Shown: positions 1,897 through 26,699 of the stretch, in pieces
Position numbering within the stretch: the stretch's first letter is position 1
Layout: every line of letters starts with the position of its first letter
From: Daphnia pulex
Taxonomy: Eukaryota > Arthropoda > Branchiopoda > Diplostraca > Daphniidae
Assembly: GCF_021134715.1 (NCBI RefSeq)
Contig: NC_060024.1
Span: 3,038,001-3,102,000, forward strand
Reading direction: 5' to 3'
Length of the DNA stretch: 64,000 bases
Program-made: the position numbers and the translations under genes
The notes under the pieces: model-generated
Told to the model about the DNA's origin: nothing
Database searches by the model: none
What the model saw: only the letters and a program-made list of their open reading frames with translations

Positions 1897-1966
1897 CTAG
1901 ATAAAATGTCATAAATTACAGATTAGTTCACTTTCCTACAGATATTTAGTTTGACGTTCAATTTAC
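1897..1966 (-). other. Putative intron C of copia-1 (70 bp)
   Basis: Donor ATCG|GTAAAT and acceptor TTTTATCTAG|AT join in phase 1 and restore an open frame from the integrase-RT linker into the RT start. The 70 bp size and pyrimidine-rich acceptor fit small arthropod introns. Its position differs from intron C of copia-2, which is closer to the SDRTPKY-type linker motif. Confidence 0.5.
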
Positions 1967-2336: not shown

Positions 2337-2411
2337 CTAATTTGACGCATTGGAAAAAAATACGAATACTGTTTATCACATGCACAATATAAGAAATAAA
2401 ACATGATATAC
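2337..2411 (-). other. Putative intron B of copia-1 (75 bp)
   Basis: Donor GGCCTG|GTATATCATG and acceptor CGTCAAATTAG|GACCCTGG, phase 0. Reading through meets a stop. Splicing joins the open integrase frame to the open linker frame. Copia-2 has an intron at the same place and phase (22897-22769). Confidence 0.6.
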
Positions 2412-3256: not shown

Positions 3257-3940
3257 CTAAGTAGAGCTGGTAGGAAAAGGAGACCTGCTCATCTTTCCGA
3301 ATATACATCCTTCGCATAGTTGGTAGTCAAGATTGTTTAAGTCAAGATCGAGTCCAGCGACAGCATTAGTTCTTGCCATTTTCAAAATAGTCTTGCAGTT
3401 GAGATGGGCTAGAGGTTGATGCCAGATTGGAATGGGACGAGTAGTGCTGGCAGCGGCTGCATAAGTGCTGTCTTGGTTGGAATTCTTGGCTATTACTTTA
3501 AGATGATACAGCGACTTGCCGACTCTCTGGCCAGAAATTATCTCTGTGCCATTCTTCACAAATGCAACAGTGTCCTTGATGAAGTGCGCGTCAATACCAG
3601 AGTCGGTGGCAATTCCGATCGAGAAAAGATTCGTTCCCAGTCCAGGAACAAAAAGGACATCATGAAATTCGTCATTTTTTCTTTCTCCGTGGACATAGGA
3701 ATGAACTGGGATAGTGCCGATTCCCAACGCGTTTAGCTGAGCACCACCGATGCCGTTCACCTTCCAAGTTTCACAGTCGATTTCCTTAAATGAGCTGAAA
3801 AAGGAACGTTGATCAGTCATATGATGCGTCGCGCCAGAGTCGGCATACCAGTCGATGGGTTTTCGTGCAACAAAACAGAGAGAAGAGAGAGCGGCAAAGG
3901 AGTTGTTTTTAGAGTCGTAGTCGAGAAAAGAAGGCAACAT
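3257..3940 (-). pseudogene. Copia-1 protease and GAG-pre-integrase domain
   Basis: The aspartic protease motif DSGATHHMTDQRSF is followed by the conserved FHDVLFVPGLGTNLFSIGIA. Further on come the GAG-pre-integrase zinc-binding residues in PIWHQPLAHLNCKTILKMA and LCEGCIFGKMSRSPFPTSST. The stretch equivalent to the protease intron of copia-2 is continuous coding sequence here. The frame ends at 3257 at a stop; the gag frame upstream is in a different phase. Confidence 0.85.
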
Positions 3941-4186: not shown

Positions 4187-4266
4187 CTGGTAAATAAAGA
4201 AAATGTCAGACATTATTCAATCATTCACATTTCGTGTCTAAACGAGTTCCTTCAATAATTATTTAC
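4187..4266 (-). other. Putative gag intron of copia-1 (80 bp)
   Basis: Donor CCCG|GTAAATAATT and acceptor TTTATTTACCAG|AT, phase 1, splitting the codon after the proline of the gag motif DP(E/D)H. Without splicing the frame stops at once (PGK then stop). Copia-2 has an intron at the same codon and phase (25164-25091). Confidence 0.65.
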
Positions 4267-17643: not shown

Positions 17644-20372
17644 ACCACACCCTTTCCTCTCCTGTCACACCTTCACCACGTAGCTCCGCTAACCTAATCT
17701 GTTTTCAGATCAACCTCAAGCACTCTCGTTGCGCTGCGTTTAATGTCTCGCAATTGATACTGGATCTTGATATTGAAGTGATTTTAATTCAAGAGCCGTA
17801 TTCAGCTATGTCCCCCCTGTCTTTTTCGTTTGAGCCTAAATTCGTTCCTCTTGGCTACTCTTCTTTACACAGTATCTCTTCCGAGCATGCTTTCGGTGCC
17901 CTGATTATTGCCAAAAGTTCTCTTAACGTTTCGCTCTGCAATTTTGGTCTATCAAATAACTGTTGTGGCGTCAAGCTGTCCAACGATCTTTTCTTCTTCT
18001 CTATTTACTGCAGACCGTCTCTGGTATCGATTACTTTACACCTCGAGTCAATTTTGAAATCTTTTCCGCCTGCCGCAAAAAAACACGCCATTTTCGGCAT
18101 TGATTGCAACGCCAAAAGTCAGGCCTGGAATAGCGTTCGCTCTGACCACATCGGCGTTGACTTAGAGCTCTGTTTCCTAAATAACGCTCTCTCTGTTTCA
18201 AATGTGAATCTTAACCTTCTTTCGCACAAGCCGTCTAACACGTCCTTTGTTGACGTCACTCTGGCTGTGGACTCCGTCTCCCTCAATTGTTGGCAATACC
18301 CGGCCTATCCGTCTCTTTCTGACCACCCTTTTATCTCTTTCCGTGTGCCCTTTGGTTGTCGTGTTGCCCCGCCTGCACGCACTGAGGTCCGTCTTCCGTC
18401 TCTTCCCAACTGCAACATGACGCTTTTTCTCTAAAACCTTGAAGCCTCCCTCGGTACCATGGTCATCCCCAGTACTATACAGACGTTTACCTCTCCTCAT
18501 GATATCGAAGCATTCATTGCAAATTTGACTGACTCTATCAAGTCGGCTGCTCTGAAAAGTAAACTCCCATTTCATTCCTCCCCTGCTAGGATGCTAGGAG
18601 CCCCTGCTAGGATGCCCTGGTGGTCCGAAAATATGTGGTCTCTGCGTAAAAAGCTGAGAGACGCCTACAAACTCAGTCGTGAATCTCCCTCTCAAGGGAA
18701 TAGAGACGCGTACAGTCACCTAAAAGCCGAGTACCAAAGGACCCTCAGAGCAGGAAAAAAAGAAAGCTGGAAATTCTTCTGGTCCAATAACCTAAACGGA
18801 GATATTTTTGGAGAGTTAAAAAGTTGACATTATCCACCCCAGTAAACAATCATCCTTCAGAACTACTAATTGATGAAGTTTCCATTACCGACCCAAATGA
18901 CATCCTTTCTGCCTTCAGCTCGCACTTCTTCCCGACTAACCCTCCAGATGACTCATTTCAAAAATCCGCTCTGCTCTCCTCAACTACCTTCTGCGAAGCA
19001 CCTCTCTCTTCTATGGAATATCTCGTCCTCCCTCCCAAAGTTAAGCAGGCCTTCGATAGTGTGCGTCTCTCTAAGTCCGCCGGCTCGGATGGAATCTCGT
19101 CCATCTGGCTAAGCCATTCCTTCGATTTAATCAAATCCTATTTAGCGGCCCTCTTCTCGGTTTGCCTTAACCTCGGTTACTTTCCTAAATGCTGGAAAAC
19201 CGCCTCTATCGTCATCCTTAAAAAAACAAAAAACCGAACTACCTTCATCCAAACTGTTTCAGGCCAATCAGTATAATCAACAGCCTCTCTAAACTGTTTG
19301 AGAAAATCATTCTTGCTAAACTCAAGGCTTTGGCTGCTACGCACTCTTGGTTCAGCCCCAGTCAGCATGGTTTCAGGGCAGGTCTATCCACAAAAACGGC
19401 CTCCCTCTCTCTTATTTAGTTAATCGAAGGCGACAAAAAAAGAAGATGGTCGTTTGTTGTGCTTTTTTAGACATTAAGTCAGCCTTTGACGTGGCCTGTT
19501 ACCCAGCCATTCTGAACAGCCTAATTTAAAAAGGCTGCCCCCAGTTCTTAGTAAAAATTCTGGGTGACTTCCTCAGCTCTCGCTCAAGCATTTTGGAAAA
19601 CGTTTCAACCTCCTTCACTGACAACACTGAGCTCGGTTGTCCACAAGGCAGTGTCCTCTCGCCGTTTCTTTGGAAAATTCTTATAGAAGAACTGCTAAGC
19701 CTTAGTTTCCCTATTCTCTCCTTTATTTTGGCGTATGCCGATGAAATTATTCTCTGTGCTATGGACAAAGACTTCGAAACTGCTCTTGCCAACCTTCAAG
19801 CAATAAGAGATTCCGCTGTAGCATGGGGTCTTTCGGTCAAACTAACTTTCAGCGGCTTAAAATCCGTCTTCATGGTCTTCTCCTCTAAACGATCCCTGCC
19901 GTCATTGCCCTTGAAGGTTGACAACGTATGTGTTGCTCGTTCCCATTTTTGCCTGTACCTTGGTCTAACCATCGATGACAAACTCAGCTGGAACACCCAC
20001 ATATCTAACAAATGTGCTGCGGTAAAAAAACTTTTGTTCCTCATTTAAAAATGCTGTTGGCTGTCTTGGGGCCTTTCGCGCAATGCAATTTCTCTTCTAT
20101 ATAAAACAACCACAATTCCCACTATACTTTACAACTGTTCTGTTTGGGCTTCGGTCATCCGCAGGAAGCGAGTAATTGCAGCCCTGAAATCCGACCAACG
20201 CCTTTTTGCGCTGACCATTGGCCGACTGTTCAAGTCCACGTCTACTGACGCGGCTTTCATTCTCGCCAACATCCTCCCTCTGCACCTCAAAATCATCGAA
20301 ACGGTTCTAAAGAGATCCATCTCTACCCTAGCTGCTCTTCTGCCACCCTCGTCGTTACAAGTTGCTGGCGGT
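17640..20372 (+). pseudogene. Non-LTR ORF2: endonuclease and reverse transcriptase (5' part)
   Basis: The AP-type endonuclease occupies about 17640-18430 (CFQINLKHSRCAA, EVILIQEPY, IFGIDCNAKSQAW, then FVDVTLA and the final SLSDHPFISF). RT follows at about 18820-19950 (SAGSDGISSIWL, CFLDIKSAFDVA-like and LGCPQGSVLSPFLW). The active-site box reads YADE, not YADD, so a catalytic aspartate is changed. Stops near 18433, 18827, 19276, 19529 and 20048 break the frame. The sequence reaches the copia-2 insertion at 20378 and resumes at 26700. Confidence 0.85.
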
Positions 20373-20377: not shown

Positions 20378-20657
20378 TGTTAAAATAAATAAGATACAAT
20401 ATACTTGGGTATATTGTTGATGACACCAGTGATACAAAAGTCACATTTGAGACACACACGAAACACAGAGCACATACACCGTTACCTCACTCCACGAGAA
20501 CATAGACAAGAAGGAGGAAAAAGGAAGCCCCCCCCCCTTTTCTAAGATGTCTCCCTCCCACGTTGCCAGACTTAAAGTAAAGCCTGGTGTCGTCACTTGT
20601 TCTAAAGAAGGGGAAGGGGGTAAAGCGGGTTTGCCAAATGGACGGCCGTTTCTTATA
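20378..20657 (-). repeat. Copia-2 3' LTR
   Basis: 280 bp from TGTTAAAATAAATAAGATAC (plus-strand view) to CGTTTCTTATA, matching 26425-26699 apart from scattered substitutions and a longer C run near 20530. The open frames seen across it are not genes. Confidence 0.9.
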
Positions 20658-20669
20658 CCCTCTCTCAAA
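20658..20669 (-). other. Copia-2 polypurine tract
   Basis: Minus-strand TTTGAGAGAGGG directly before the LTR, the same design as TTTGAGGGAGAG in copia-1. Confidence 0.7.
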
Positions 20670-20680
20670 CCCGCACCTCC

Positions 20681-21992
20681 TCAATTCTTCTCGTATGGTC
20701 CTACCCCGATGCGTTCACGTAACTCTTGGAATCTTGGTGCTGGTAAAGCCTTCGTGAAGATGTCGGCCAATTGGTCTTTGGAGCTAACGTATTCGACGGC
20801 GATCTTGTTGTTTTCTTGCAGCTGTCTCACAAGTGATATCTCATGTCGATGTGTTTTGATCGCCTCGGATGGACCGGATTTTTGACCAGACAAATAGCGC
20901 TTTGATTGTCGCAATACATCTTAACGGGATTTGGTGGTACCTCGTTGCCTGAAGACTTTTCTTTTGGGACCGGAGATGAGTTTAGCCCGTCAGCCAGCGC
21001 GTTGAGCCATAGAGCTGTCTTCGCTCCATCGGATAAGGACACATATTCCGACTCGTTAGTTGAGATAGATACACATTCTTGTCTCCTGCACGACCATGCG
21101 ACTGGCCCTCCCTCGTAGAAAGCGATGCACCCTGAGATGGATTTTCGGTCGTCTACATCGCTGGCGTAGTCGGCGTCGGTGTAGACTACGGCTCCTTCAT
21201 CCTTCCGTCCACCCAGCCATATACCGAAGTCGAGTGTACCTTCAGATAAGCGAATATACGTTTGACCGCGTTCCAGTGCGCTGGCTGTGGGTTTTCGCAA
21301 AATTTTGACACTTGTCCAACGCCGTAGGCAATGTCCGGTCTATTGGTAGATGAGAGATAGAGCAGGAATCCAACTGCCGCACGGTAGGGGATTAAAGACA
21401 TGTCCACTTTCCCCTCGTTTCGTGGCACCATCGAACTTGAAAGGTGGACGCTGGATTCGGCTGGGGTCAGCTTGGGATGGCTGTCCGTCATGCCGAACTG
21501 TTCCAGTGCCTTGAGTATGGAGTGCTGTTGCGAGAGAAATATTTGTTTGTTTTCCCCGTCGTACTCGATGTTCATACCAACGAATCTGGTCGGGGGGAGA
21601 CATCTTACTTCAAACTCGTTACCGATCCAAGTAGCGAAGCGTTGACACTCCTGATCAGAAATGCTAGAAAACCATCCGTCATCTACCCAGATGAAGAGAT
21701 ATGACACGATGCTCTTGTTTACCAGGATGAACACGCACATATCTGCGTCCAGTGCCTTGAAACCATATCTGAGTAGGGCGGCGATGAAGGTCTTGCACCA
21801 AAGACGGGGAGCCTGCTTTATGCCGTAGACTGCTTTCAAAAGCTTACAAACGTGGTCCTCTTTTCCAGACACCACGAATCCTTCGGGTTGGGTCATAAAG
21901 ATTGGTTTGTCAACATCCGCGTTCAGGAACGCTGTGGCCACGTCGAATTGAAATGATTTGTATCCGAGCGATGCGGTGAGTAATAGAACAGA
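20681..21992 (-). pseudogene. Copia-2 reverse transcriptase (C-terminal part) and RNase H
   Basis: RT continues from FDVATAFLNADVDKPIFMTQ with the active-site box WVDDGW. RNase H follows: YTDADYASDVDDRKSISG, ISTNESEYVSLSDGAKTALW and MYCDNQSAICLV, ending LADIFTKALPAPRFQELRER. The in-frame TGA near 21990 separates it from the RT start upstream. One-base losses near 21245 and 20890 shift the frame. These few breaks are the only visible damage in this exon, which runs from 22434. Confidence 0.9.
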
Positions 21993-22434
21993 TCAAATCG
22001 AGTCAAGGCGTGGCTCAGGTGCGTACGTTTCTTCGTAGTCGACGCCGTACTGCTGGTGACATCCAACAACTGTCAATCTTCCTTTAAAGCGTGGGGCCAC
22101 GAAATCTGGCTGCAGTGGGTCTCCATAGCCCGGCTTATATTTCCCAACCCATTTGTGAGGCAGTATAGCGCACTCAGTTGGTACTTGGGATTTGGGGATG
22201 AGCACCCACGATTTGTTCTTGATCTGAGAGTCATACTCTGCCTTGAAAGCTGGTAACCACTGTTCCGCATATCTTGATTCCACCGCTTGTTTGTAGGTTT
22301 GTGGTTCATCAATTTCTAGTTCGAAAAATGAAGAGCGCTTAGGGGCTGGATCAGTGGATGCTGCATTTCCGAATGATTCCATATATTCAACGTATCGATC
22401 CGTGTATCTTGGCACGCGGCCGGATCTTGTTGGT
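21993..22434 (-). pseudogene. Copia-2 reverse transcriptase, N-terminal part
   Basis: Begins in the linker (PTRSGRVPRYTDRYVEYMES) after intron C and enters RT (EPQTYKQAVESRYAEQWLPA, then KSWVLIPKSQVP and HKWVGKYKPGYGD). It is open until the TGA near 21990; the coding sense resumes in the same frame directly after that codon, so it looks like one nonsense mutation. Confidence 0.9.
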
Positions 22435-22499
22435 CTATGAAATATATATAGAAGGTGGTGAGCGCCAGTAATTGTTTCGTAACGGCGATTAGTTTTTAC
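22435..22499 (-). other. Putative intron C of copia-2 (65 bp)
   Basis: Donor CGAAG|GTAAAAAC and acceptor TTTCATAG|A, phase 2, restoring an AGA codon. Reading through is not compatible with the downstream RT frame. Confidence 0.65.
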
Positions 22500-22768
22500 C
22501 TTCGATAATTGTGTGATTCGTGAATCGATATTGGTGGGGCGTCAACGTTGGGGACTTCATCCGCTTCTTGATTCTTGTTGGTGTGATCAGGAGTCACAAC
22601 GTGAACAGGTTCCGCATCCGCAACGTCGAGGACTTCCGTACCATTTCTGCCGCCAGGAGCCCGTTCAATCTCCTTCTCTAAGGCCTCGACTTGGGAAGCT
22701 TCTTCGACTGATGCATCTTGATTATCGGCTTTGTCTTGGCTTTCATCTACACCTTCGATTAGTTGAGT
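22500..22768 (-). pseudogene. Copia-2 acidic integrase-RT linker
   Basis: Open phase-0-start exon starting TQLIEGVDESQDKADNQDAS, rich in acidic residues and ending HESHNYR. It corresponds to the acidic linker of copia-1 by place and composition, but the residues are hardly conserved. Confidence 0.75.
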
Positions 22769-22897
22769 CTGGTGGAAAAAAAACGGATATATATACATAA
22801 TATATATATAAATATATAAATATACACATACATAAATATATATACACAAAAATAGATTTTGTTTGTTTATGTATGGCTACTAGTATAAGCAAGATAC
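22769..22897 (-). other. Putative intron B of copia-2 (129 bp)
   Basis: Donor AATCAG|GTATCTTG and acceptor TTTTTTTTCCACCAG|ACT, phase 0. The interior is a TA-rich simple sequence with a stop soon after the donor. It occupies the same integrase-linker junction and phase as 2411-2337 in copia-1. Confidence 0.7.
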
Positions 22898-24043
22898 CTG
22901 ATTAAGTACTTCTACTAATAGTTGCATTGGTTCCATTGGGCTATTGCCCTTTACAGCTGTGAGTGGGTGATCTCCAATCAGGATTGTTTCATCGAAGGTC
23001 ACATCACGGGAAACGATTATTTTCCTCTCGACAGGGTTCCAAAGTCGCCAGGCCTTTTGATTTTCACCGTAGCCGACCATCCAACATGCTTCGCCTTTAG
23101 GATCTAGTTTCTTGCGTAGCTGGTCGGGAACTTGCGCGTATGCGCGGCAGCCGAGAACCCTTAGGTGGGCCACCGATGGTTTCTTGCTGAATAATTTCTC
23201 AAACGGAGTGACTTCTGTGTGGCTGGTAAGAGTCCGGTAAAATATGTAAACGATAGACAGAAGAAATTCGCCCCAGAGTTCTCTGACTTCATTTCTGATG
23301 TTGCACGGAAGTTGGTTGCTGTTGTCGTTAGTGTACAGGCCACTTCTCACGGCCTCTACAACTGTACGCATTGTTCTCTCGAAACGAGAGTTTTGTTGTG
23401 GAGTGTACCTAGCAAGAGTTTGATGAATAAGGCCAGTACGTTTTTTGTATTCGCTAAAGTTTCCGCCGAGGATGTCGGTTCCTTGGTCCGTACTGAGTAT
23501 TTTTATTGGCCTTCCGGTTTGGGTTTTCATCATTTCTGCAAATTCCATGAAATGCGTGCCAGCTTCGTTTTTCGTCTTCATGAGTTTGGCTACTGTATAA
23601 CTGCTGTTGTCGTCTTTGAAAATGACGAAGAAGCGATGGCCTTCAGGAGTTGGCACGTGTAATAGACCCCCGACATCGGAGTGGATCAAGTCGCCGATAT
23701 TTTCCGCGCTTCCGCATCCGGTTGGGAACTTGCTACGGTGGAGTTTTCCAAAGATGCAACCTTCGCATATGAGTGGTTTTTTGACGTCGTTGAGGTGCAG
23801 GCCGTATACTGCTTTAGATTTGTTGATCTTTGAAATGTCCTGACAGTTGAGATGGCCGAATCTTCTATGCCAAAGTTCGAGGGACGCCTTGGTACTCCCA
23901 TTACCAACACCGTAGAGCGCTGTTGAAGATTCTTCGTTCAGTTCCGTTGGGTTTTTGGTCGTAGCGCATAATCTGTAGAGAGAGTTTTCGACACGAGAGC
24001 CAGTCATGAATTTTTCGTTAGTTTCCTTATTAGCGAAAAAGAC
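22898..24043 (-). pseudogene. Copia-2 GAG-pre-integrase and integrase
   Basis: A single long open exon. The zinc-binding part has LELWHRRFGHLNCQDI and LICEGCIFGKLHRSKFPTG (HHCC). The catalytic core has LIHSDVGG, ILSTDQGTD and RYTPQQNSRFERTMRT, so D, D and E are all present. It continues with LWGEFLLSIVYIFYRTL and VLGCRAYAQVPDQLRKKLD. No break is visible in the exon itself. It would join element cDNA to host DNA in the nucleus. Confidence 0.92.
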
Positions 24044-24114
24044 CTGTTGGTAACGAAATATTTATAAACATAAATCTCGAGTCATGACTGCAATTTTTAC
24101 GAGTTGTATCATAC
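24044..24114 (-). other. Putative protease-region intron of copia-2 (71 bp)
   Basis: Donor ACACAG|GTATGATAC and acceptor CGTTACCAACAG|GTC, phase 0, between TDTQ and VFFANKETNEK. Copia-1 has continuous coding sequence at the same place, so this intron is present in only one of the two elements. Confidence 0.65.
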
Positions 24115-25090
24115 CTGTGTATCAGTGAACTCAACATTGACGTTACAGTCGGTGGCTGCTCCAATTGAAAAAGATTAATTCCAAGGCCGGGAACGTATAA
24201 CACGTCGTGGAATGTTTCTTCAAGCTTCACACCATCTACTTCTGTAATGACGTCGATGTTTCCTATACCAAGGGCTTGTAGTTCAACACCACCAATTCCG
24301 TTAATTTTCCATGTTCCGGGTGGCATTATTTTGAAAGTGGTGAAGAAGGACCGTTGATCAGTCATGCGATTGGTTGCGCCCGAATCAGCGTTCCAGACCT
24401 TGTGTTCCCGTGCAACCAGACACAATGACGAAGAGATACAGCCAAAGCCTCTTTTCTTGTTGAGGTTTTCGTTTCTCGCTTGTCCACGTTCTTCTTCTCT
24501 TTTTGTTGGACACTGATAAGCTTTGTGTCCGTTTCCATTGCAGTTGAAGCAGACGACTGTGCCGGCGTGTTGGCTGCTTTGCTGCTGATCGTTTTGTTGT
24601 TGTCCATCTTTTCGAGCGTATGAGTGGTTGTGCGGATAGGAGCTACCACCACCTCTACCTCTTCTTCCTCCTCGGCCTCTGCCAAGTCCTCGCCATTCAC
24701 CCGTAAAGTAAGGACCTCGTCCGCGGCCACGAAATCCACCTTGCGCGTGTGCTGCGTTGTCGAAACTTTGCCCTGAGGATGTCTTTGCAGCGCTCTCCCC
24801 AGCGAAAGCGGCGGCCTTAGGTGTGTGAAACGCAAAGAAGGCCGCATCGGTCGGATCCATCGCGCCGTTGTTGGCCGCTCTGCTGATGGCTTCTTCGTTT
24901 ACCAGTCTTGGTGTTAGGTTTGATATCGTTTGCTCGTTCCTTGGTAGATTGTCCCAAGCTGAACGGAATGAGCGAAAACTGGGGGGTAGTGTTTGGATAA
25001 TTTTCACAACGAGTTGTTGTTCAGTGACAGGTGATTCCAAGTTTCTCAGCTCTTCTGCCAAGTTTTTGTATACTGCCACATTTAAGTACT
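24115..25090 (-). pseudogene. Copia-2 gag (middle and C-terminal) and protease
   Basis: Starts with a split GAG codon, then YLNVAVYKNLAEEL. The gag core ILVKIIQTLPPSF-like block and NLTPRLVNEEAISRA are followed by an RGG-type Arg/Gly-rich stretch and a zinc knuckle CFNCNGNGHKAYQC. The protease has WNADSGATNRMTDQRSF and ETFHDVLYVPGLGINLF. One T is missing from a T-run near 24170, which shifts the frame just before the end of the exon. Arg/Gly-rich regions and knuckles bind element RNA. Confidence 0.9.
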
Positions 25091-25164
25091 CTGTGTTCTG
25101 TGAACGGTAATCATGTGTGAGTCAACAAGATTCTTTAGTTTTATGAACTGTATAGTTAGTATAC
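25091..25164 (-). other. Putative gag intron of copia-2 (74 bp)
   Basis: Donor CCTG|GTATACTAAC and acceptor AACACAG|AG, phase 1, splitting the codon after the proline of the gag DP(E/D)-type motif exactly as in copia-1. An upstream CAG is an alternative acceptor but gives the wrong frame. Confidence 0.7.
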
Positions 25165-25402
25165 CAGGATTGTATTTGTAGTTGAAAAATTTCTCTAGCA
25201 GTAGATTGCCGTTGATAGGAGCAGCGTTGGCGTATTGCAGTATCAGACGCTCCCACATTTCCGCGGAGGACGCGCATCCTTCGATGAGAGTTTGCTGTGG
25301 TCCCTCAACGTTGCAGAATATTATAATTCTCGCCTCTGCATCCTTCATGTCCCAAGCCTCTATCAGATTTTGGTTCGCGACTTCCTCGTTCTCATTGAGG
25401 TT
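25165..25402 (-). pseudogene. Copia-2 gag exon 2
   Basis: Acceptor TTGACAG|AACCTC, phase 0. It encodes NQNLIEAWDMKDAEARIIIF, GCASSAEMWERLILQYANAA and FFNYKYNP, colinear with the copia-1 gag exon. It is open throughout. Confidence 0.85.
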
Positions 25403-26237
25403 CTGTCAATAATTGAACATAACGTTAATTAATTGGCGTGCGTAATAGGCCACGTCTGCGGAGATGAGATCTCAATGAACGGCATAATTTTGTGTGAATT
25501 CTCAATAGAATAAACAGTGATACTCTGGTATTCTGTCGTGTCGTGGTACGCGCATAAAATATGTATACATACATATATTTATATATAAATATACATATAT
25601 AATTGTTTTAATCAAACGATCGTGACTTTCACCACTCGTTAGACGCGAGTGTGGCGTGTGTGAGGCCTGAGTGACGTGAACGATCGTTTGTCCCAAGCAA
25701 ATGCGTTTACACGACTTACAACGACATAAACCTTCTTCACAAATCATGCTAGAATGGCAGTATAGTGTTTCTATTTCAGACCGAGGCTGTATAATGAGAG
25801 GATTAATTCAGACTGCTTTAGCCGAAAACAAAATCTAGCTTACAAGTATCATGTGAAATGCCTATCTGAAAGAAACACTATTTACAACTGCAAAATTGAA
25901 CAATAAGCCAACCATTTAATGTTTTTCCATCATCAGGTAGTGTCATGTTTCTATACCAACACGTGGCTGCAAAGAAGTAAGTCTGACCCCACGATTACTG
26001 TAATTCGTTTCAGAATAAGAAAAACTGGTCATTGACTTCATTCTGAGCAGTCGTTGGGTAGAAACATCACTTACAACTACTCGTAAAATCTCTTTCTTCT
26101 ATGTCCCGGAAATAGCTCAGTCTTTTGCCATCATTACAATTTTTGTCTCTCTCCTTTTCTTTTGCAAAAAAAAATTCTCAAAATTCAAGCCTTTTTCTTT
26201 GTCTCGCAAGACGTCTACATAGAAAGACAATAATTAC
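25403..26237 (-). other. Putative first intron of copia-2 (835 bp)
   Basis: Donor CCG|GTAATTATTG and acceptor TTCAATTATTGACAG, phase 0. It contains TA-rich sequence near 25550-25600 and no recognisable coding region. It joins the short gag N-terminal exon to the rest of gag. Confidence 0.6.
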
Positions 26238-26387
26238 CGGTTCGGGTCGAGGTTCAAGTCTCGTGACGACGTTGAAAACACGTGCTCGTTGCAGCAGCAG
26301 TGTACACCCATATCTAAACGAGGTCCATTTTTCTGGACCGCTCAGCTTCGTTATTCTGTTGACTTCTCTCGCGGCTTCGTGATTCAT
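26238..26387 (-). pseudogene. Copia-2 gag exon 1 (N-terminus)
   Basis: Starts at ATG (26387), 50 codons: MNHEAAREVNRITKLSGPEK, then WTSFRYGCTLLLQRARVF, the usual N-terminal copia gag motif (L.GPENW...). It begins only about 25 bp after the primer site, leaving a very short leader. Confidence 0.8.
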
Positions 26388-26410
26388 TCTTGTCAATTAA
26401 TCGGCGTGTT

Positions 26411-26424
26411 CTGGGCCCATAACC
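26411..26424 (-). other. Copia-2 primer-binding site (half initiator-tRNA)
   Basis: Minus strand GGTTATGGGCCCAG directly after the 5' LTR is complementary to the anticodon stem-loop of initiator methionine tRNA. This is the half-tRNA priming known for Drosophila copia. Confidence 0.8.
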
Positions 26425-26699
26425 TGTTAAAATAAATAAGATACAATGAACTTGGGTATATTGTTGATGACACCAGTGATACACAAGTCACATTTGAGAC
26501 ACACACGAATCACAGAGCACATACACCGTTACCTCAATCCCCAAGAACAAAGACAAGAAGGAGGAAAAAGGAAGCCCCCTTTTCTAAGATGACTCCCTCC
26601 CACGTTGCCAGACTTAAAGTAAAGCCTGGTGTCGTCACTTGTTCTAAAGAAGGGGAAGGAGGTAAAGCGGGTTTGCCAAATGGACGGCCGTTTCTAAAA
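26425..26699 (-). repeat. Copia-2 5' LTR
   Basis: 275 bp, homologous to 20378-20657. The ATCTC duplication begins at 26700. Read on the minus strand it starts TTTTAGAAACGG and ends AACA. Confidence 0.9.

Follow-up and report, generated by a model that had tools for sequence, protein, structure and literature searches.

Copia-2 is a Ty1/copia-type long terminal repeat (LTR) retrotransposon on the minus strand of a 64,000-nucleotide (nt) stretch of the Daphnia pulex genome (C8:3038001-3102000), herein called the window. Its coding sequence is divided by introns, which is unexpected in such an element because copying from RNA to DNA should shed introns easily. Copia-2 was compared with its sibling copies and with other copia families of the same genome (133.19 Mb, 13 contigs). 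As read from the genome alone, these comparisons demonstrate that the introns exist, sit at conserved places, have been inherited via many rounds of RNA copying, and have at times been removed to the exact base.

The LTRs, the target site duplication (TSD), the primer binding site (PBS), and the polypurine tract (PPT), all of which the first-pass annotation had reported, were located (Table 1). Pfam searches of the separate coding pieces returned the domain order of copia, namely gag, zinc knuckle, Pol_BBD, GAG-pre-integrase, SH3, and RVT_2, and RNase H was placed by eye only, 3′ of RVT_2. No Pfam match to the integrase core (PF00665) was obtained in the window copy; relatives with a listed match include P0002, P0004, and P0005. 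In these features, and in the TSDs that flank all six known copies, copia-2 is a regular Ty1/copia element. What it lacks is the single continuous gag-pol frame that is usual in this group without being strictly defining, since all six copies carry introns. The two LTRs of the window copy are 94.6% identical (10 mismatches, 5 gap positions), and several frame breaks are spread across its gag and pol. The sibling LTRs start with TATTAG and finish with TAATA, TAACA, or TATCA, compared with the usual TG..CA. A second copia element of the window, family A, extends roughly from 5089 to 128 on the minus strand, misses its 5′ end, and shares ~48-49% identity with copia-2 in the reverse transcriptase (RT).

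Table 1. Features of copia-2 and introns of family A in the window (SEQ entries give the sequence of the feature).
Feature	Position	Strand	Remarks
copia-2, LTR to LTR	20378..26699	minus	5-bp TSD GAGAT on both sides
5′ LTR	26425..26699	minus	275 nt
PBS	26411..26424	minus	GGTTATGGGCCCAG; complementary to anticodon arm of tRNA-Met (CAT)
gag exon 1	26238..26387	minus	50 aa, ATG start
Intron 1	25403..26237	minus	835 nt, phase 0; in 6/6 copies
gag exon 2	25165..25402	minus	
Intron 2	25098..25164	minus	67 nt, phase 1; exactly absent in L012
Exon 3	24115..25097	minus	remainder of gag, zinc knuckle, Pol_BBD
Intron 3	24044..24114	minus	71 nt; exactly absent in L012
Exon 4	22898..24043	minus	GAG-pre-integrase, SH3 (integrase region)
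Intron 4	22769..22897	minus	129 nt, AT-rich microsatellite inside; in 6/6 copies
Exon 5	22500..22768	minus	linker
Intron 5	22435..22499	minus	65 nt; in 6/6 copies
Last coding part	20681..22434	minus	RT and RNase H, several frame breaks
Intron 6 point	21620..21621	minus	exactly missing in window copy; 69 nt, GTAACTAATAAG..TTTTGTCAG, in L009
PPT	20658..20666	minus	GAGAGAGGG
3′ LTR	20378..20657	minus	280 nt
Family A intron 2	4187..4266	minus	80 nt; position and phase as copia-2 intron 2
Family A linker intron	2337..2411	minus	75 nt; after SH3, near copia-2 intron 4
Family A third intron	1897..1966	minus	70 nt; exactly absent in sibling L024/L047, 1-nt ambiguity

A genome search with the 3′ LTR region of copia-2 gave 14 matches, which correspond to six LTR pairs and two single LTRs. 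Besides the window copy, the pairs represent five full-length siblings: L009 (C6), L010 (C7), L011 (C3), L012 (C5), and L013 (C10). The six copies occupy six different sites with six different TSDs (GAGAT, CGAAT, AGACG, AAGTA, AGCAT, and AACAT), and all of them contain introns 1, 4, and 5. This bears out the proposal of the first-pass annotation that the introns are carried through retrotransposition, for which it had suggested searching the genome for copies with the same introns at the same places. Full-length siblings empty at all five intron places would have spoken against it; none of the five is so, and one lacks two introns. Unspliced RNA as the template, also proposed there, is thus the usual case: introns 1, 4, and 5 are kept in six of six copies, two of which (L009 and L010) have LTR pairs of 100% identity. 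LTR-pair identity is 99.6% in L011 and 97.9% in L013, and the pair of L012 shows 2 mismatches in 281 positions. Judged by its LTR divergence and its private changes, the window copy is older and more decayed than any of the five siblings, which makes it a poor choice for judging function. Variable columns that split the six copies unite L009, L010, and L011 in 17 cases and L012 with the window copy in 10; the window branch alone accounts for 125. Relatives in viral contigs were not found with six peptide patterns from exon 4.

The introns have GT..AG ends and join exons of matching phase, as expected of spliceosomal introns. The boundaries first proposed for introns 1, 3, 4, and 5 are exact. 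Intron 2 ends at 25098 and not at 25091, because L012 lacks exactly the segment up to the former position; the earlier end had made up for a minor frame break that lies shortly downstream in the decayed window copy. The count of five introns holds for the window copy only, as all five siblings carry a sixth (67-69 nt across the genome matches) that is exactly missing here. When five copies were each compared with L010, seven length differences of at least 15 nt were found: three exact GT-AG segments, three changes of microsatellite length within intron 4, and an insertion of 1569 nt in L013. The three exact absences concern introns 2 and 3 in L012 and intron 6 in the window copy. Introns 3 and 6 are flanked by a 6-nt repeat on each side (ACAGGT and GGTAAC, respectively), whereas intron 2 leaves an ambiguity of 1 nt only. 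A sequence search for a source of intron 6 elsewhere in the genome matched the five siblings only. The insertion in L013 has inverted ends (CTCCCAGCTA..GCTAGCTGGG) and is probably a DNA transposon.

The clearest case of exact removal is provided by a short, gag-only, non-autonomous copia (L079; C1:4383300-4388300), from which pol is removed between gag and the RNase H end. A search with its sequence from the primer site to the RNase H end gave at least 20 full-length copies at 100% rounded identity, L079 included (scores 2913-2928), which means that the element was active very recently. All of these and one copy at 92% keep intron 1. In the copy L080 (C8), the match falls into two abutting pieces, both 100% identical to the C1 copy, and exactly the 510-nt intron 1 (GTAAGT..AATCAG) is absent without any positional ambiguity. 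L080 has identical LTRs (200 of 200 nt) and its own TSD, GTCAC versus CCTAT for the C1 copy. At least 21 copies with the intron (20 near-identical, one at 92%) thus stand against one without; the counts are lower bounds that exclude shorter, diverged matches. For L080, the best explanation is a spliced RNA that was retrotransposed. The copy thereby indicates that splicing of intron 1 takes place, that the spliced RNA can be reverse-transcribed and integrated, and that this route is the minor one (one of the 22 copies listed). In the relative L082, the joint of the pol removal lies near CACCAG/CTATG and perhaps reflects a copied Gag-only spliced RNA.

Exact natural intron removal is therefore seen in L080, L012, and L024, and also in the window copy (intron 6), where the direction of the change is uncertain. 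The earlier notion that spliced RNA is kept out of replication must be given up to this extent. The joint absence of the neighbouring introns 2 and 3 in L012 would be compatible with partial splicing as well as with a template switch from one packaged RNA to another. Searches for further losses of intron 1 gave none in family A (two full-length and two partial matches, one of the latter being the window copy) and none in L054 or L059 (two matches above 90% each).

Exons and introns also differ in how they vary. Variation was counted over nine exon pieces in six copies (five for exon 3), with each variable column counted once and the decay of the window copy included. The variable columns are distributed as 56, 34, and 154 over codon positions 1, 2, and 3, and among codons with a single change (piece ex7 excluded) 109 changes are synonymous and 70 non-synonymous. 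Pairwise difference amounts to 1.4-2.4% in eight of the nine exon pieces, compared with 4.1% in intron 1, 6.2% in intron 4, and 4.2% in intron 5; introns 2 and 4 were compared in five copies and intron 3 in four. Hence, the copia-2 exons resemble protein-coding sequence that selection maintains, introns 1, 4, and 5 look less constrained, and the third-position variation points to spliced RNA as the likely source of the protein. A D. pulex gene model, P0078, spans the intron-1 junction.

A divided gag-pol, first described as a trait of copia-2, is not peculiar to it. Upstream regions were read in 20 further families (L046, L048-L066), drawn from the RT match list and mainly high-scoring with long open frames; with copia-2 and the gag-only L079, 22 families or subfamilies were compared. 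A phase-0 GT..AG intron at one gag site, usually after ..P.E, is found in 17 of them: copia-2, A, B (L048), L049-L054, L056, L058, L059, L063-L066, and L079. L055 has an intron at a nearby but different gag site, and the region of L060 was cut too early to be scored. The acceptors were picked by eye among the in-frame options; L063, L064, and L066 have weak donors or acceptors, and the site of L063 is the least clear. The close pairs L053/L054, L058/L059, and L064/L065 mean that fewer than 17 independent lineages are represented. In 17 introns (L055 included, L065 not), the last 15 nt on the acceptor side contain 71% pyrimidines, and randomly chosen places within these introns contain 51%. Intron 1 of L048, L049, L054, and L079 contains tandem repeats with units of 27-96 nt, and that of copia-2 holds a short AT repeat. 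The repeat unit of L048 includes CACAG/GTAAC, which resembles a joined pair of splice sites.

Intron 2 occupies one phase-1 site in nine families (copia-2, A, B, L049, L050, L051, L053, L054, and L063; placed from translations only in L051 and L054). It is absent in seven (L052, L056, L058, L064, L065, L066, and L079), and the remaining six of the 22 were not covered or not decidable. Family B carries introns 1 and 2 as well as another in the linker that follows SH3. Compared with L047, the window copy of family A misses ~380 bases near 3923-3927; L047 in turn has ~1073 extra bases relative to 3406-3411, probably a nested insertion.

By their distribution, the gag introns 1 and 2 are old; for intron 2, this follows from a place and phase common to families whose RT identity is no higher than ~48%. 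In the RT tree, L057 and L062, both without intron 1, form a pair, and L061, which also lacks it, is the sister of L055; the intron is present in L064/L065, the most divergent family (32% identity). This placement fits an old intron 1 that was lost at least twice, in a tree that does not resolve the deep forks and has one long branch as its outgroup. The 70-nt intron of family A and introns 3 and 6 of copia-2, each found in one family, are probably later gains.

The explanation regarded as likely is that host-spliced spliceosomal introns split the coding sequence of a D. pulex copia group that includes copia-2, and that mostly unspliced and occasionally spliced RNA is copied. Herein, the spliceosome would remove the introns to yield the mRNA for Gag(-Pol), and the RNA that is packaged and reverse-transcribed would be mostly unspliced. 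Partly or fully spliced RNA would leak into particles at a low rate, giving rise to copies without one or two introns. Slow splicing, nuclear export, or selective packaging are candidate causes for genomic RNA staying unspliced. A broader reading, whose chances are put at about even, takes splicing in Daphnia as a group-wide copia switch. The old gag intron immediately downstream of the primer site would divide unspliced genome RNA from spliced Gag-Pol mRNA and would be kept by selection in most lineages despite a steady leakage by which introns are deleted, with active copia lineages gaining new introns at the same time.

Several observations weigh against this explanation. The short introns 2 and 3 differ by 2.1 and 3.3% between copies, which is not clearly faster than the exons, and in the linker (exon 5), which diverges by 3.8%, the variable columns hardly favour third positions (9/6/11). 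P0078 may simply be the intron-less copy. In three families (L057, L061, and L062), the frame crosses the intron-1 site uninterrupted. The absence of introns 3 and 6 could stem from DNA-level deletion or recent insertion, given the 6-nt repeats at their ends. The folding of intron 1 is uneven, with z-scores between +0.30 and -5.95 across 17 introns, and L080 demonstrates that intron 1 is dispensable for reverse transcription and integration, which argues against a strict intronic packaging signal. A large, conserved, structured packaging domain in intron 1 was rejected as a strict rule on these last two grounds and on the intron length, which ranges from 65 to 840 nt across families.

One alternative holds that the introns are dispensable for the protein, that is, retained or alternative introns that tune Gag versus Pol as in Drosophila copia or BARE1 of barley, with unspliced RNA also being translated. 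Splicing of copia and BARE1 indeed yields a Gag-only RNA according to the part of PMC3735527 consulted, and L079 has the make-up expected of a pol-removed RNA. Moreover, three of the 17 intron-1 sequences have no in-frame stop (two others have a length divisible by 3 but contain stops), and the frame stays open across intron 2 in L051 and L053. However, intron 1 of copia-2 contains 15 in-frame stops and its flanking phases match, so its removal continues gag; introns 4 to 6 lie inside pol; and the BARE1 intron, in the same source, terminates the frame after Gag. This alternative is thus given little credence.

Equally improbable is that the short introns are recent DNA-level gains, for instance from repair with short direct repeats, so that the intron-less copies would be original and spliced RNA would never have been copied. 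The 6-nt repeats around introns 3 and 6 agree with it, as does the high intron proliferation of D. pulex described in the portion of PMC5427498 seen. Introns 3 and 6 were probably gained at some time: in families A and B the frame continues across the intron-3 site (in B also across that of intron 5), and the intron-6 site is bridged by the RT matches of the other families in the tree. Against it, intron 2 is old and yet exactly lost in L012 with an ambiguity of 1 nt, and L080 has lost intron 1 exactly among many near-identical copies. These two cases rule out DNA-level gain as a full account. That the introns are chance GT-AG pairs between the frameshifts of a decayed element has next to no probability: the window copy is old and broken, and the boundary once placed at 25091 was such a case, but the exact absences in other copies, the sites and phases conserved across families, and the third-position bias of the exons contradict it, and L080 and L012 rule it out.

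Ty1/copia elements of D. pulex, the species and group of copia-2, have been described as abundant and diverse in the sections available of Rho et al. 2010 (PMC2996953) and of PMC3587641, which has a CoDpu clade. The average LTR of 288 nt (PMC2996953, Table 1) is comparable to the LTRs of copia-2. The strings intron and splic do not occur in the main texts of these two papers. Host-spliced RNA is also a feature of Drosophila copia and BARE1, with separate RNAs for translation and replication demonstrated for BARE (PMC3735527, seen in part). In those elements, pol is spliced out or the frame stops after Gag as a result of splicing, and unspliced RNA holds the full open reading frame without interruption. 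By contrast, the D. pulex elements have several introns within gag and pol, the phases around introns 1 and 2 of copia-2 match, so that its frame is neither ended after Gag nor deprived of pol, and DNA copies of spliced RNA are present. For BARE1, such DNA copies could not be amplified, and the generality of these strategies was left open in the part of PMC3735527 consulted. Penelope-like elements are described as keeping introns (PMC3313927, likewise seen in part), and copia-2 resembles them in retaining introns through retrotransposition.

Penelope-like elements belong to a different RT class and move by a different mechanism; the LTRs, PBS, PPT, TSD, and copia-type RVT_2 set copia-2 apart from them. 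Retrocopies of host genes lose their introns exactly via reverse transcription of spliced RNA. Unlike these, the intron-less copy here is the retrotransposon itself, which competes with its own unspliced genome RNA.

Copia RNA splicing (in Drosophila copia and BARE1), Penelope-like introns, and intron proliferation in D. pulex are thus already known, and conserved copia gag introns appear to be unreported within the portions of the literature searched. Introns in Daphnia copia or conserved copia gag introns were not reported among the PMC matches listed, a scope that excludes Repbase and most subscription journals and that is no proof of novelty. The parts seen of PMC2996953, PMC3587641, PMC5718144, PMC3313927, PMC13148404, PMC2678813, PMC5427498, and PMC12910113 describe no copia introns, unlike PMC3735527; word counts in the accessible text of PMC3266345 gave no matches. 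How LTR-retrotransposon RNA is split between translation and replication, an open question in the sections of PMC3735527 consulted, becomes readable from DNA, as each new insertion is a record of a spliced or an unspliced template. The D. pulex copia families also allow introns to be followed in a natural setting as they are gained and lost over short times, and the species has been a subject of work on intron gain before (PMC5427498).

The PBS of copia-2 is complementary to tRNA-Met over 14 nt. The matching tRNA word occurs 88 times in the genome, and ARAGORN called a tRNA-Met at the one fetched locus that contains it. The priming tRNA is presumably the initiator tRNA-Met; Drosophila copia is primed by an internal part of the initiator tRNA-Met (half-tRNA). 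Large tRNA-Met arrays, in which many genes are spaced by ~417-480 bp, lie at C2:8740287-8775106, C7:4300901-4356157, and C7:7185353-7194838, and tRNA-Gly genes stand between the tRNA-Met genes at the single locus scanned. In the window, a fragment of a non-LTR retrotransposon RT (19347-20048, plus strand; RVT_1 at 19593-20048) lies ~330 bp from the copia-2 insertion. Finally, P0092 from Daphnia sinensis and P0093 from Daphnia pulex are almost the same 281-aa gag-like protein, for which a domesticated gag or horizontal transfer is possible.

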